From NCBI GenBank assembly GCA_904398675.1, contig CAJFPI010000189.1, positions 1 through 40,133 on the forward strand: a DNA stretch of 40,133 bases. The letters are read 5' to 3'. The notes below the pieces were generated by a model that saw nothing but the letters and a program-made list of their open reading frames with translations, ran no database searches and was not told the DNA's origin. This DNA comes from an uncultured Oscillospiraceae bacterium. GTDB lineage: Bacteria; Bacillota; Clostridia; Oscillospirales; Oscillospiraceae. This document shows, piece by piece, positions 8,039-14,026 of this stretch. Made by a program: the position numbers and the translations under genes. The first letter of the stretch is position 1. The number at the start of each line of letters is the position of its first letter.

Positions 8039-9281
8039 GTTTGACGTGCTGGTGGCCGGCGGCGGAGCTGCCGGCATGATGGCGGCCGCTGCCGCCGCGG
8101 AGCAGGGGGCTGCCGTGGCCCTGATAGAGCCCAACAGCCGCCTGGGGAAAAAGCTGAATATCACGGGGAAGGGCCGCTGCAACCTGACAAACAATTGTAC
8201 ACCCGCGGAGCTGCTGGCTCACATTCCCTGTAATGGGAAATTCCTGTACAGTGCTTTTTCCCAGCTGAATAGCCAGGATACCATGGCGCTGTTTGAGGAG
8301 ATGGGCGTGCCGCTGAAGACGGAGCGGGGCAATCGGGTCTTTCCCGTCAGCGACCGCTCCTTTGATGTCAGCGGCGCGCTGGAGAAGAGGCTGCGTCAGC
8401 TGGGCGTCTCCATTATTCGGGATCGGGTGAAACGCCTTTTGACAGACAATGGGCGGGTGACCGGCGCTGCCGGAGAGGCGGAGGACTACTTCGCCGGGGC
8501 GGTGATTCTGGCCACCGGCGGCGTCTCCTATCCCCTCACCGGAAGCACGGGGGATGGATACCGCCTGGCCAGCTCAGCAGGGCATACTATTGTAGAGCCC
8601 AGGGGTTCCCTGGTTCCCCTGGAGGAGGAGGGGAATCTCTGCGGGCAGCTCCAGGGGTTGAGTCTCCGTAACGTCTCCTTCTCTGTCTTTGAGGATGACA
8701 AGCGAATTTTTCAGGAGTTCGGGGAGCTGCTTTTCACCCATTTCGGCCTCAGCGGGCCGCTGGTGCTGTCCGCCTCGGCCCACATGCGCCAGTTTGGCCG
8801 GCGCCGGTACCGGGGGGAGATCGACCTCAAGCCGGCGCTGGATGAGGAAACCCTGGATAAACGGATTCTTCACGACTTTGGGGAGAAACAAAACTGCGAT
8901 TTCGGCAATGCCTTAGATGCGCTGCTGCCGAAAAAAATGATCCCCGTCTGTGTTTCCCTCTCCGGCATCCCGCCTCATGAGAAGGTCCACTCCATCACCC
9001 GGGAGCAGCGACGCGCCCTTCTGGATCTTCTGAAACATTTTTCCATCCCCATTCGCGGGCCGCGGCCAGTGGAGGAGGCGATCATCACCTCCGGCGGCGT
9101 GAAGGTGGGGGAGATCGTCCCCTCCACCATGGCCTCCAAAAGGGCGGAGGGGCTGTATATTGCCGGGGAGCTTTTAGATGTGGATGGCTACACCGGGGGC
9201 TTTAACCTGCAGATTGCCTGGTCAACAGGCTATGTGGCGGGGCAGAATGCCGCATGGCACGCTCTGTCAAACAAAACGTGA
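8028..9281 (+). CDS. NAD(P)/FAD-dependent oxidoreductase, HI0933/BaiN family
   Basis: VAGGGAAGMMAAAAAAEQGAAVALIEPNSRLGKKLNITGKGRCNLTNN; TSGGVKVGEIVPSTMASKRAEGLYIAGELLDVDGYTGGFNLQIAWSTG. Confidence 0.93.
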   Translation: MRTEFDVLVAGGGAAGMMAAAAAAEQGAAVALIEPNSRLGKKLNITGKGRCNLTNNCTPAELLAHIPCNGKFLYSAFSQLNSQDTMALFEEMGVPLKTERGNRVFPVSDRSFDVSGALEKRLRQLGVSIIRDRVKRLLTDNGRVTGAAGEAEDYFAGAVILATGGVSYPLTGSTGDGYRLASSAGHTIVEPRGSLVPLEEEGNLCGQLQGLSLRNVSFSVFEDDKRIFQEFGELLFTHFGLSGPLVLSASAHMRQFGRRRYRGEIDLKPALDEETLDKRILHDFGEKQNCDFGNALDALLPKKMIPVCVSLSGIPPHEKVHSITREQRRALLDLLKHFSIPIRGPRPVEEAIITSGGVKVGEIVPSTMASKRAEGLYIAGELLDVDGYTGGFNLQIAWSTGYVAGQNAAWHALSNKT

Positions 9282-9296
9282 GGGAGCGGAGAGATA

Positions 9297-9974
9297 ATGG
9301 GAGAAAAGACAAAAGCAATTGCCATCGACGGGCCGTCCGGCGCCGGGAAGAGCACCCTGGCCCGGGCCTTGGCCAAGGAGCTGGGGTTCCGCTATGTGGA
9401 CACCGGCGCCATCTACCGCACAGTGGGCTGCTACGCCCGCCGCAAAGGGGTGGACCCGGGGAACGCGGAGGCTGTGACGGCGCTGCTGCCGGAGATCCGG
9501 GTGGAGGTTTTGTATGACAGCGAGGGGCTGCAGCACATGGTCTTGAATGGGGAGGACGTGACGGCGGAGATCCGCCTGCCGGAGATCTCCATGTATGCCT
9601 CCAGGGTGTCCGCCATCCCGGCAGTCCGGGATTTTCTTATGGAGATGCAGCGGGATCTGGCCCGGCGGCACAATGTGATCATGGACGGGCGGGACATCGG
9701 TACGGTGGTGCTGCCACAGGCCGATATCAAGCTGTTTTTAAGCGCATCTCCGGAGGACCGGGCCATGCGCCGTTTTCTGGAGCTGGAGCAGCGGGGGACC
9801 CCCCAGGACTATGGGCCGCTGCTCTCAGAGATCAAGGAGCGGGACTATAATGACTCCCACCGCGCCGCCGCACCGCTGCGGCCGGCAGAGGATGCCATAT
9901 TGCTGGATACTACAGGAAATACATTTGACCAGAGCTTTCAACTGCTGCTGAAGACCATAAAGGAGAACCTATGA
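9297..9974 (+). CDS. cmk: Cytidylate kinase
   Basis: IAIDGPSGAGKSTLARALAKELGFRYVDTGAIYR; MDGRDIGTVVLPQADIKLFLSAS. Confidence 0.95.
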   Translation: MGEKTKAIAIDGPSGAGKSTLARALAKELGFRYVDTGAIYRTVGCYARRKGVDPGNAEAVTALLPEIRVEVLYDSEGLQHMVLNGEDVTAEIRLPEISMYASRVSAIPAVRDFLMEMQRDLARRHNVIMDGRDIGTVVLPQADIKLFLSASPEDRAMRRFLELEQRGTPQDYGPLLSEIKERDYNDSHRAAAPLRPAEDAILLDTTGNTFDQSFQLLLKTIKENL

Positions 9975-10567
9975 GCCGGCGTTTCTACCGTTTTGCCTAC
10001 ACGATTGTAAAGCCGATCTTCTGGCTGCTGTGTCCTTTCCGGGTGGAGGGGCTGGAGAATGTGCCGGAGGGCGGCGCCGTTCTCTGTGCCAACCACAACA
10101 ATGCGGTGGACCCGATCTTGATCGCGCTGTCCCTTCCCAGGAAGGCAGTCCTGCGCTTTATGGCGAAAATGGAGCTGTTTCAGCATCCGTTTCTCAGCCG
10201 GCTCTTCCGCGCGCTGGGGGCGTTCCCGGTGGACCGGGAGGGGAACGATATGAGCGCCATGAAGACAGCTATGAAATGCCTGCAGAGCGGGGAAAAGCTG
10301 GTGCTTTTTCCCGAGGGGACCCGGGTGGACAACGCCGGGGATACTGCAGCAAAGGGCGGCGCGGTGATGTTTGCCACCCGGACAGGCGTGCCGATGGTCC
10401 CCATCTACTGCGGCGGCAAGCACAAATTTTTTCGCCGCAGCCGTATCGTCTTCGGCCAGCCCTACATACCGGAGTTTGCAGGGCGGCGCCCGACGGCGGA
10501 GGAAAACCGCCAGTTTGCCGACGAGCTGCTCCGCCGGATCTACCATCTGGGGGAGGAGAAGGCATAG
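9971..10567 (+). CDS. plsC: 1-acyl-sn-glycerol-3-phosphate acyltransferase
   Basis: NHNNAVDP (HX4D variant, NHxxxxD) and FPEGTRV motifs; overlaps the cmk stop. Confidence 0.88.
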   Translation: MSRRFYRFAYTIVKPIFWLLCPFRVEGLENVPEGGAVLCANHNNAVDPILIALSLPRKAVLRFMAKMELFQHPFLSRLFRALGAFPVDREGNDMSAMKTAMKCLQSGEKLVLFPEGTRVDNAGDTAAKGGAVMFATRTGVPMVPIYCGGKHKFFRRSRIVFGQPYIPEFAGRRPTAEENRQFADELLRRIYHLGEEKA

Positions 10568-10603
10568 GGAGCGGAATATTTGCAGGGAAAGGAAGTTGCG
10601 GCT

Positions 10604-12553
10604 ATGCAGGTCATTGAGGCAAAGTCCGCGGGATTCTGCTATGGTGTCCGCCGGGCCGTGGAGCTGACGGAGCAGGCGCTGGATCAGGGAAAGCGCCCGG
10701 CCATGCTGGGGCCTGTGATTCATAACAGCGCCGTAATCCGCCAGCTGTGCAGCCGGGGGGCTCGCCTGATCCAAAGCCCCGGAGAGGCCCGGCCGGGGGA
10801 ACCGGTGGTGATCCGCGCCCATGGGGAGGGGGAGGAGACCTACCGGGTGCTGCGGGATATCGGCGCGGAGATTTTAGACGGCACCTGCCCCCACGTCCGC
10901 CGCATCCAGGAGATCGCCCGCCAGGCTGCCGCAGAAAACCGGCAGCTGATTTTGATTGGGAACCCGGATCATCCGGAAATTCGCGGCATTTGCGGCTGGG
11001 GGCGGAATGTCTTGGTATTTCCCACACCGGAAAGTGTCGGCGATTATCTGTCGGAGCACCCGGAAATGGCCGGAATACCAGTGACTGTAGCCGCGCAGAC
11101 CACCCAAATACAAGAAATTTGGGAAAGTTCACTGAAAATCATAAAAAAACAGTGTACAAATCTAAAAAAGTTTGATACAATATGTAGTGCTACGCATAAG
11201 CGTCAGTCTGAGGCGGCAGAGATTGCCGCACAGGTGGACGTGATGGTTGTGGTAGGAGACCGTCAAAGTGCCAACAGCAGACATCTGTTTCAGCTGTGTC
11301 AGGAGCAGTGCAGCCGCGTCTTTCTGGTTGAGGGGGCGGAGGAACTGACGCCGGACAAGCTGGCCGGCTGTCGCCTTGCCGGGCTGACGGCGGGGGCCTC
11401 TACGCCTGCGAGCATCATAAAGGAGGTCAACAAGACGATGAGCGAAGAAAAAATCATGAACGAGGGCACCGAAAATTTTGCCGAAATGTTTGAACAGTAT
11501 ACCAATACTTTGAATACAGGAGACAAAGTTACCGGTGTCGTCACCGCTATCACCCCTACCGAAGTTCATGTGGATCTCGGCTGCAAGCAGGCCGGTTATA
11601 TCCCCATGGATCAGCTGACGGACGATCCCGATGCCAAGCCCGAGGACATTGTGAAGATCGGCGACCAGGTGGAGCTGTATGTGATCCGGGTGAATGATGT
11701 GGAGGGGTATGCCACCCTCTCCAAAAAGCGCCTGGATGCCAACAAGATTTGGGATGTCCTGGAGCAGGCTGTTGAGGATAAGACGGTCATGGAGGGCGTC
11801 GTGTCCGAGGAGAACAAGGGTGGCATCGTCGTGTTCATCAAGGGTGTGCGCGTGTTTGTCCCCGCCTCTCAGTCCGGTCTGCCCCGCGGCGCAGATCTCA
11901 GCCAGCTGATCAAGCAGAAGGTGCAGCTGCGCATCACCGAGGTTAACCGTGCCCGCCGCCGTGTGGTCGGCTCCATCCGCGCCGTGGCTTACGAGGCCCG
12001 TCAGGCCGCTGCTGCCGCGCTGTGGGAGGGCATTGAGGTTGGTAAGCACTACACCGGCACGGTCAAGTCCATGACCAGCTACGGTGTGTTCGTGGATATC
12101 GGCGGAGTGGACGGGATGGTACATATCTCGGATCTCTCCTGGAGCCGGATCAAGCACCCCAGCGAGATTGTCAATGTAGGGGATACCCTGGATGTGTACG
12201 TCATCTCCTTTGACAAGGAGAAGAAGAAGATTTCCCTGGGCGTGAAGGACCGCTCCATCAATCCCTGGGATACCTTCATGTCCACCTATAAGGTCGGCGA
12301 CGTGGCCAACGTGAAGATCGTCAAGCTGATGACCTTCGGCGCCTTTGCCGAGGTTGTCCCCGGTGTGGATGGCCTGATCCACATCTCCCAGATCGCAGAC
12401 CGTCGGATCGAGAGCCCCGCCGAGTGCCTCAGCGAGGGCCAGATGGTGGACGCCAAGATCATTGAGGTGGACGAGGACAAGAAGAAGATCTCCCTGTCCA
12501 TCCGCGCCCTGCTCCACGCCCCTGCGGCGGAGGAGAGCGCCGACGAGGAGTAA
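10604..12553 (+). CDS. ispH: Fusion of 4-hydroxy-3-methylbut-2-enyl diphosphate reductase (IspH) and ribosomal protein S1-like four-S1-domain protein
   Basis: IspH Cys motifs GFCYGV, GTCPHV, ICSAT; four S1 repeats from about residue 295 on (e.g. GTVKSMTSYGVFVDIGGVDGMVHISDLSW); upstream AGGAAG before ATG 10604. Confidence 0.93.
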   Translation: MQVIEAKSAGFCYGVRRAVELTEQALDQGKRPAMLGPVIHNSAVIRQLCSRGARLIQSPGEARPGEPVVIRAHGEGEETYRVLRDIGAEILDGTCPHVRRIQEIARQAAAENRQLILIGNPDHPEIRGICGWGRNVLVFPTPESVGDYLSEHPEMAGIPVTVAAQTTQIQEIWESSLKIIKKQCTNLKKFDTICSATHKRQSEAAEIAAQVDVMVVVGDRQSANSRHLFQLCQEQCSRVFLVEGAEELTPDKLAGCRLAGLTAGASTPASIIKEVNKTMSEEKIMNEGTENFAEMFEQYTNTLNTGDKVTGVVTAITPTEVHVDLGCKQAGYIPMDQLTDDPDAKPEDIVKIGDQVELYVIRVNDVEGYATLSKKRLDANKIWDVLEQAVEDKTVMEGVVSEENKGGIVVFIKGVRVFVPASQSGLPRGADLSQLIKQKVQLRITEVNRARRRVVGSIRAVAYEARQAAAAALWEGIEVGKHYTGTVKSMTSYGVFVDIGGVDGMVHISDLSWSRIKHPSEIVNVGDTLDVYVISFDKEKKKISLGVKDRSINPWDTFMSTYKVGDVANVKIVKLMTFGAFAEVVPGVDGLIHISQIADRRIESPAECLSEGQMVDAKIIEVDEDKKKISLSIRALLHAPAAEESADEE

Positions 12554-12578
12554 TTTTCTCCAAATCTTTCAGCCATAT

Positions 12579-12619
12579 AAAAAAGCGGCTGGAGCAGTGT
12601 TGCTCCGGCCGCTTTTTTG
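12579..12619 (+). terminator. Intrinsic terminator after ispH::S1
   Basis: AAAAAAGCGGCTGGAGCAGTGTTGCTCCGGCCGCTTTTTTG. Confidence 0.88.
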
Positions 12620-12715
12620 TCGGCTGCCGGTGGGACCCAATGGAGATGTAAGAGGGAAAATGCTATAAAATTTTACTAAAACGGGGGAAAACAGGAAATA
12701 ATGGATAAGAAATCA

Positions 12716-12744
12716 TTGCATTATGGTAAAATGTGGAGTAAAAT
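12716..12744 (+). promoter_or_regulatory. Putative sigma-A type promoter of the carD-like gene
   Basis: TTGCAT - 17 nt - TAAAAT, 49 nt upstream of the ATG. Confidence 0.55.
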
Positions 12745-12793
12745 GAAATAAAGTCCCAATTCGAAAGTGTGTTAAGCGGCCAAAGGAGGGCGT

Positions 12794-13282
12794 ATGTTTC
12801 AGGTAGGGGACAAGGTCGTGCATCCGATGCACGGTGCCGGTGTGATTGATAGTATTGTAGACGAAAAGATCGGTGGAGCGGTACAGACGTATTATGTGTT
12901 TCGGATGTCTGCAGGCGGCCTTGTTCTGAAAATCCCTGTTGCCAACAGCCAGGTGATTGGTCTTCGCGCTGTGGTGGATGCGGCGGCTGCGGATGCGGTG
13001 ATCGCGGCTCTGGGCAGCCTGGAGATCGAGGTGACGGCCAATTGGAACAAGCGCTATCGCGAGAACCTGGAGCGGCTGAAAAGCGGGGATCTCTATGAGG
13101 TAGCCCGGGTGATCAAATGCCTGATGAGTCGGGACGCACAGCGGGGGCTCTCCAACGGCGAGCGCAAAATGCTGCACAGCGCAAAGCAGATTTTTATTTC
13201 CGAGATGGTGCTGGCCAAGGATGTCCCCTACAGCGATATCGAGGGACAGGTCAACGCCTGCCTGGTGGGTGAGGGTGCATAA
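12794..13282 (+). CDS. CarD family transcriptional regulator
   Basis: FQVGDKVVHPMHGAGVIDSIVDEKIGGAVQTYYVFRM; RERLKSGDLYEVARVIKCL-type core. Confidence 0.92.
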   Translation: MFQVGDKVVHPMHGAGVIDSIVDEKIGGAVQTYYVFRMSAGGLVLKIPVANSQVIGLRAVVDAAAADAVIAALGSLEIEVTANWNKRYRENLERLKSGDLYEVARVIKCLMSRDAQRGLSNGERKMLHSAKQIFISEMVLAKDVPYSDIEGQVNACLVGEGA

Positions 13283-13288
13283 GTAAGT

Positions 13289-14026
13289 ATGTTTGGATGG
13301 GTCAAAAGGCTTTTTTCAAAAGAGGACGCCGCGCCGTTTTTCTGCAGCGCCGTGATGCCTGCCGCCGGCTCCTCTTCGCGGATGGAGGGGCAGAATAAAC
13401 TCTTTGCCGCTGTGGGAGGAATCCCTGTTCTGGCCCGGAGCGTCCTGGCCTTGGGCCGGTCGGAGCTGGTGGATGAGATTGTTGTCGCCGTCCGGGAGCA
13501 GGATCTTCTGGCGGCGGCGGATCTTCTGCGGCCCTATGATCTGGGCAAGCCCTTAAAAATTGTGGTAGGCGGGAAAACAAGGGCGGAGTCCGTTATGGCT
13601 GCCCTGCGGGAGTGCAGCGATGCCGCTACATTGATTGCAGTTCATGACGCCGCCCGCCCCCTGGTCCCTCTTTCTGTGGTGGAGACGGCAATTGAGAAGG
13701 CGCGGGATGCCTTGGCTGCGGCGCCCGCCGTGCCGGTGAAGGACACCATCAAGGTGGCGGAGGGCGGCGTGGTCCAGCGGACGCCGGACCGTTCGACCCT
13801 GTTTGCTGTGCAGACGCCCCAGGTGTTTGACCGGGATCTGCTCACCGGTGCGCTGCAGGCTGCGCTGGATCAGCAGATACCGATCTCTGACGACTGCTCT
13901 GCTGTGGAGCGGCTGGGAAAAACGGTTTATTTGACGGCCGGCAGCTATGAGAACATCAAGATCACCACGCCGGAGGACCTTCTGCTGGCGGAGGCCATCT
14001 GTGAGAGCAGGGGGGAGAGCCTATGA
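13289..14026 (+). CDS. ispD: 2-C-methyl-D-erythritol 4-phosphate cytidylyltransferase
   Basis: [53 protein letters not shown]. Confidence 0.93.

Follow-up and report, generated by a model that had tools for sequence, protein, structure and literature searches.

A probable nested rpsA gene with its own candidate promoter and start site inside the ispH-rpsA fusion of an uncultured Oscillospiraceae bacterium

The fusion gene and its genomic context

The window analyzed here is a stretch of 40,133 nucleotides from an uncultured Oscillospiraceae bacterium. On its forward strand an open frame at 10580-12553, with ATG 10604 as the likely start, encodes a LYTB domain followed in the same frame by four S1 domains. 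This corresponds to the known IspH/S1 bifunctional fusion NF000907, which is matched over its full length with 693 bits (curated cut-off 624). The IspH (LytB) half extends over 10604..11437 (+) (PF02401, E=2.7e-83; TIGR00216) and is followed by the S1 half at 11438..12553 (+) (PF00575 x4), which as a free protein would comprise 371 aa. The NF000907 definition calls for no second ispH or rpsA in the genome, and a single IspH (LYTB match) and a single multi-S1 ORF were found in the assembly, which is 76% complete. The predicted masses are 71.0 kDa for the fusion and 40.8 kDa for a free S1, in agreement with the ~71 and ~40 kDa given in an earlier note on this DNA; that note also described IspH/S1 fusions as known in clostridia, which is borne out by the assignment to NF000907 and by the literature (PMC4746011). 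The gene order at 9297-14026 of the window is cmk, acyltransferase, ispH-rpsA, CarD-like and ispD, and the CarD-like gene also carries AAAGGAGG ahead of its own ATG (12782-12796).

An internal Shine-Dalgarno and start codon conserved beyond the protein

The fusion frame contains a Shine-Dalgarno (SD) sequence, AAAGGAGG, at 11419..11426 (+) (codons ATA AAG GAG GTC), placed 11 nt before an in-frame ATG at 11438..11440 (+), and the product starting at this ATG begins MSEEKIMNEGTENFAEMFEQYTNTLNTGDKVTG. A gap of 11 nt is somewhat above the usual optimum. Within the window AAAGGAGG occurs 5 times against 1.6 expected, which alone is not clearly beyond chance; as the promoter motif described below is likewise near chance when taken alone, the significance of both signals rests on their conservation.

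This was evaluated in an alignment of 175 distinct fusions, in which the junction reads IIKEVxxxM. Within the internal AAGGAGG, Glu was encoded by GAG in 175/175, where the codon usage of the individual genes predicts 98.5, with no change on the tree, and the preceding codon (K/E/Q) ended in G in 171/171 (106.7 expected). Among the AT-rich fusions (GC3<0.5), GAG was present in 51 of 51 vs 17.5 expected (z 10.2), the best of 19 other Glu columns used as control reaching z 2.8. An in-frame start was kept in all 175 sequences, as ATG in 172, as GTG in 1 and as an ATG one codon upstream in 2. The same pattern was observed in 17 further distant fusions, with GAG in 17/17 (6.1 expected), Met in 17/17 and a preceding xxG codon in 15/15. 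In a FastTree phylogeny only 3/334 columns were free of third-base changes, and these correspond to 11153 (TGT of the -35 element described below) and to 11420 and 11423 in the SD. Related fusions are not independent, a kinship that the Glu control columns and the tree counts address but do not remove. The two properties taken to define an in-frame internal start, an SD with a start codon in frame and conservation beyond protein constraint, are both found. The earlier note had given the position of the SD and ATG, the 11-nt gap and the reading frame exactly, and the check it put forward, conservation of these elements beyond the demands of the protein, gave a positive result in the 175 fusions, in the 17 further ones and on the tree.

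The mRNA around the start is weakly structured, with -9.4 kcal/mol compared to -12.0 for shuffled sequences and -18.8 elsewhere in the gene. In the Val codon that follows the SD (11426-11428), GTG was used 0 times in the order vs 51.5 expected.

A candidate internal promoter in the IspH coding sequence

Upstream of the SD, the GC content is down to 0.28 over 11110-11199, compared with about 60% in the surrounding region, confirming the AT-rich patch with an extended -10-like promoter (11153-11181) reported in the earlier note at exactly these coordinates. The patch consists of an A-tract at 11143..11149 (+), possibly UP-element-like and located directly 5' of a -35 element TGTACA (11153..11158, +), followed after 17 nt by TACAAT (11176-11181), which is preceded by TG and forms the extended -10 element TGATACAAT (11173..11181, +). 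From the spacing, transcription would be predicted to start at 11187..11190 (+), and the codons downstream of it, GCT (68/106) and ACG (73/106), are favoured in GC3-rich relatives. The hexamers match the consensus at 9/12 positions, plus the TG (the -35 alone at 4/6), and TGTACA-17-TACAAT is the sole sigma-70-like match on the + strand of 9000-13500. For the window as a whole, 2 promoter-like matches were observed vs 1.9 expected, a number that alone is not clearly beyond chance.

Conservation of the patch was evident at the level of codons. Of 106 GC3-rich relatives, AAA was used at 11144 in 99 and at 11147 in 86, and the codons that follow through the promoter were TGT in 89, ACA in 93, TTT in 95, GAT in 101, ACA in 101 and ATA in 99. 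On the tree the TGT of the -35 showed 0 third-base changes in 118 sequences and ACA 3 changes in 140. Synonymous sites were shifted to A/T over 11105-11209 in the genus, family and order groups, more strongly than at the real start of the ORF. A strict promoter, defined as TNTACA-14-TGATACAAT (that is, a -35/-10 spacing of 17 nt), was present with identical spacing in 133/149 order-level fusions and arose in 26/2980 (0.9%) within-gene synonymous shuffles. Hexamers, a spacing within 16-18 nt and evolutionary conservation, the features expected of a sigma-70-type promoter, are found together. In some sequences the Cys at the -35 is swapped for Tyr (TAT) or Phe (TTT), which indicates that the DNA pattern is retained rather than the residue. 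The strict promoter was missing in 16/149 order-level fusions, some of which hold the -10 with an altered -35, and was absent altogether from L222, L223 and L226; in outgroup fusions it was found in 0/26. Judged from these distributions, the promoter would be nearly order-wide, not universal, and the start site phylum-wide, so that the promoter appears to be order-specific and the start site older.

The pattern TGTACA-17-TANAAT has three copies in the genome, one of them ahead of an hpf-like gene, and the reversed control none. A promoter of the same type, TGTACA-17-TGGTACAAT, was observed at L276 1501-1529, ahead of a gene similar to hpf, which encodes a ribosome hibernation factor, and shared regulation of ribosome genes via this type of promoter is possible. 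A further synonymously constrained patch, ACTTTRAATACAGGAGAYAARG-like, was detected by the conservation scans and the tree at 11504..11527 (+), where the first S1 domain begins, its distance from the ATG being variable. It is not notably structured, and elsewhere in the genome it has only 2-mismatch matches and no close copy; its consideration as a genome-wide motif was therefore rejected.

It could be argued that the internal start is active through translational coupling on the full-length mRNA only, the AT-rich patch being some other DNA or RNA element, since the SD is conserved phylum-wide, also in fusions without the promoter motif of the order. However, what is constrained is a -35/-10 pair at a fixed spacing of 17 nt, together with an extended TG and an A-tract and directed at S1, and RNA structure as the basis of leader conservation was unsupported: no conserved fold was found in the leader, nor any Rfam family, the only matches being sub-threshold ones near the terminator hairpin (~12570-12630). 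On this balance coupling alone is an improbable explanation.

Codon usage of the two halves

The halves of the fusion were compared using a codon score, the logarithm of the ratio between ribosomal-protein and background usage, for which 42 ribosomal proteins of genus mates served as reference because L2 is missing from the incomplete assembly of the organism itself. The IspH half scored -0.26, close to the mean of 30 other genes in the window (-0.23, sd 0.07), and the S1 half +0.12, the ribosomal proteins scoring +0.18. The jump between IspH and S1 (0.35) exceeds the largest half-to-half difference among the 30 genes (0.18) and has the same direction in 13 relatives, and synonymous constraint is raised across the whole S1 half (~0.12 vs 0.02). 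Such a split would be expected if the two halves were translated at different rates.

Unfused relatives and the origin of the fusion

In other Bacillota (L315, L328 and the family of L320/L322-L324) ispH is followed by an overlapping rpsA that lies out of frame, hence no fusion protein is encoded, unlike in the gene described here. These pairs carry the same SD string ahead of the rpsA start and, at the homologous place, GTG TCA GAA or ATG TCA GAA (MSE), features shared with the fusion, whose inner start is accordingly the homologue of a true rpsA start. The fused gene resembles an overlapping ispH/rpsA pair whose two frames have become one. Unfused IspH proteins never have Met at the start position (0/24), the residue being L, C, I or V, and among those with an identical K-E-V and no S1 gene next to them in the fetched sequence the SD was found in 0/8 and GAG in 1/8.

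These data bear on the idea that IIKEVxxxM and FDTIC happen to encode AAGGAGGT...ATG and TACAAT by virtue of protein constraint, with the full-length fusion alone being made. Both motifs do lie within conserved IspH residues and neither is clearly above chance in the window alone, but the synonymous sites are frozen, unfused IspH proteins with the same KEV lack the SD and the Met, and codon usage jumps at the junction, and this coincidence is regarded as very unlikely. Equally hard to credit is a proteolytic release of free S1 from the fusion. The linker that follows the Met is variable in both length and sequence, as could be expected of a region that is cleaved, but proteolysis there leaves the nucleotide-level constraint and the codon-usage split unexplained and the exceptional sequences retain a start codon (GTG or a shifted ATG) rather than a peptide motif.

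In an Oscillospiraceae MAG (Cc175_bin42; L136 2540-4674) ispH and rpsA are split into adjacent genes and the promoter motif is absent. The two genes are also adjacent yet separate in MAGs of Myxococcales and Campylobacterota (L091, L115, L141 and L143), suggesting that the ispH-rpsA linkage is old.

A nested rpsA as the proposed source of free S1

Altogether, it is very likely that the gene annotated as a bifunctional ispH-rpsA contains a nested rpsA with its own promoter, SD and start, and free S1 is very probably an additional and abundant product in this gut bacterium and in those related to it. This reading is based on the conservation of promoter, SD and start, on homology and on the codon split, from which transcription, initiation and the ratio of the products are inferred. 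In the model proposed, a long upstream transcript would give rise to the 71 kDa IspH-S1 fusion and through it to all of the cell's IspH, and a sigma-70-type promoter (11153-11181) that is embedded in the codons for the FDTIC region of IspH would produce a shorter mRNA from ~11188 with a leader of ~250 nt. Ribosomes would bind AAAGGAGG on either mRNA and initiate at ATG 11438 to yield free S1 of 41 kDa, S1 thereby reaching the level of a ribosomal protein and IspH being held at that of a metabolic enzyme. The earlier note had suggested that S1 is made free and in abundance, with the fusion in smaller amount, and this view gains support from the conservation of the SD/ATG and promoter, the codon split and the starts of the unfused relatives. 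A broader proposal, which we hold to be rather probable, is that the main ribosomal S1 across fusion-bearing clostridia is the unannotated nested product and that the promoter of the order fixes the local sequence of the enzyme (KKxCTN...FDTI), a ribosomal promoter dictating part of an isoprenoid enzyme.

Some elements of this arrangement have precedents. In-frame internal initiation yields two proteins from one ORF in infB (the IF2 forms), cheA and mrcB, where, as proposed here, one frame has two starts and the C-terminal product is made separately; unlike in those cases, the inner product would be an entire ribosomal protein, expressed from a promoter of its own and nested in a fusion with an unrelated enzyme. 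In Escherichia coli, promoters of rpsA lie within the upstream cmk gene, and an S1 promoter in the preceding coding sequence is also proposed here, but cmk and rpsA are separate genes, whereas in the fusion the putative promoter and ribosome binding site are inside one continuous frame, constraining the codons of the enzyme. 'Rosetta stone' IspH-RPS1 fusions from hosts without other ispH or rps1 genes, sharing domain order and clostridial hosts with the present one, were previously reported (PMC4746011). That study treated the full-length protein alone, with truncations made, and did not describe a nested promoter or start or a free S1; its main text has no mention of an internal start, promoter, start codon, Shine-Dalgarno or stoichiometry. 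A TSS/Ribo-seq study of C. ljungdahlii reported internal TSSs, its main text being without IspH (PMC6203783). The fusion is therefore already known, and for the putative nested promoter and start no report was found in the literature searched, which covered few subscription papers.

A nested rpsA would explain how a low-abundance Fe-S enzyme can be fused to an abundant translation factor, as one-to-one production would not be needed. If this is true, the annotation of many clostridia gives one protein where two exist, and the ribosome-loading form may have escaped biochemical studies of the 'bifunctional' protein. The locus would also represent a clear case of overlapping genes turned into a fusion with separate expression kept, and of regulatory DNA that constrains the codons of an enzyme and probably its residues too. 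With regard to these codons, the changes AAGGAGG to AAAGAAG and GATACAATA to GACACCATC are synonymous recodings that leave the protein unchanged.
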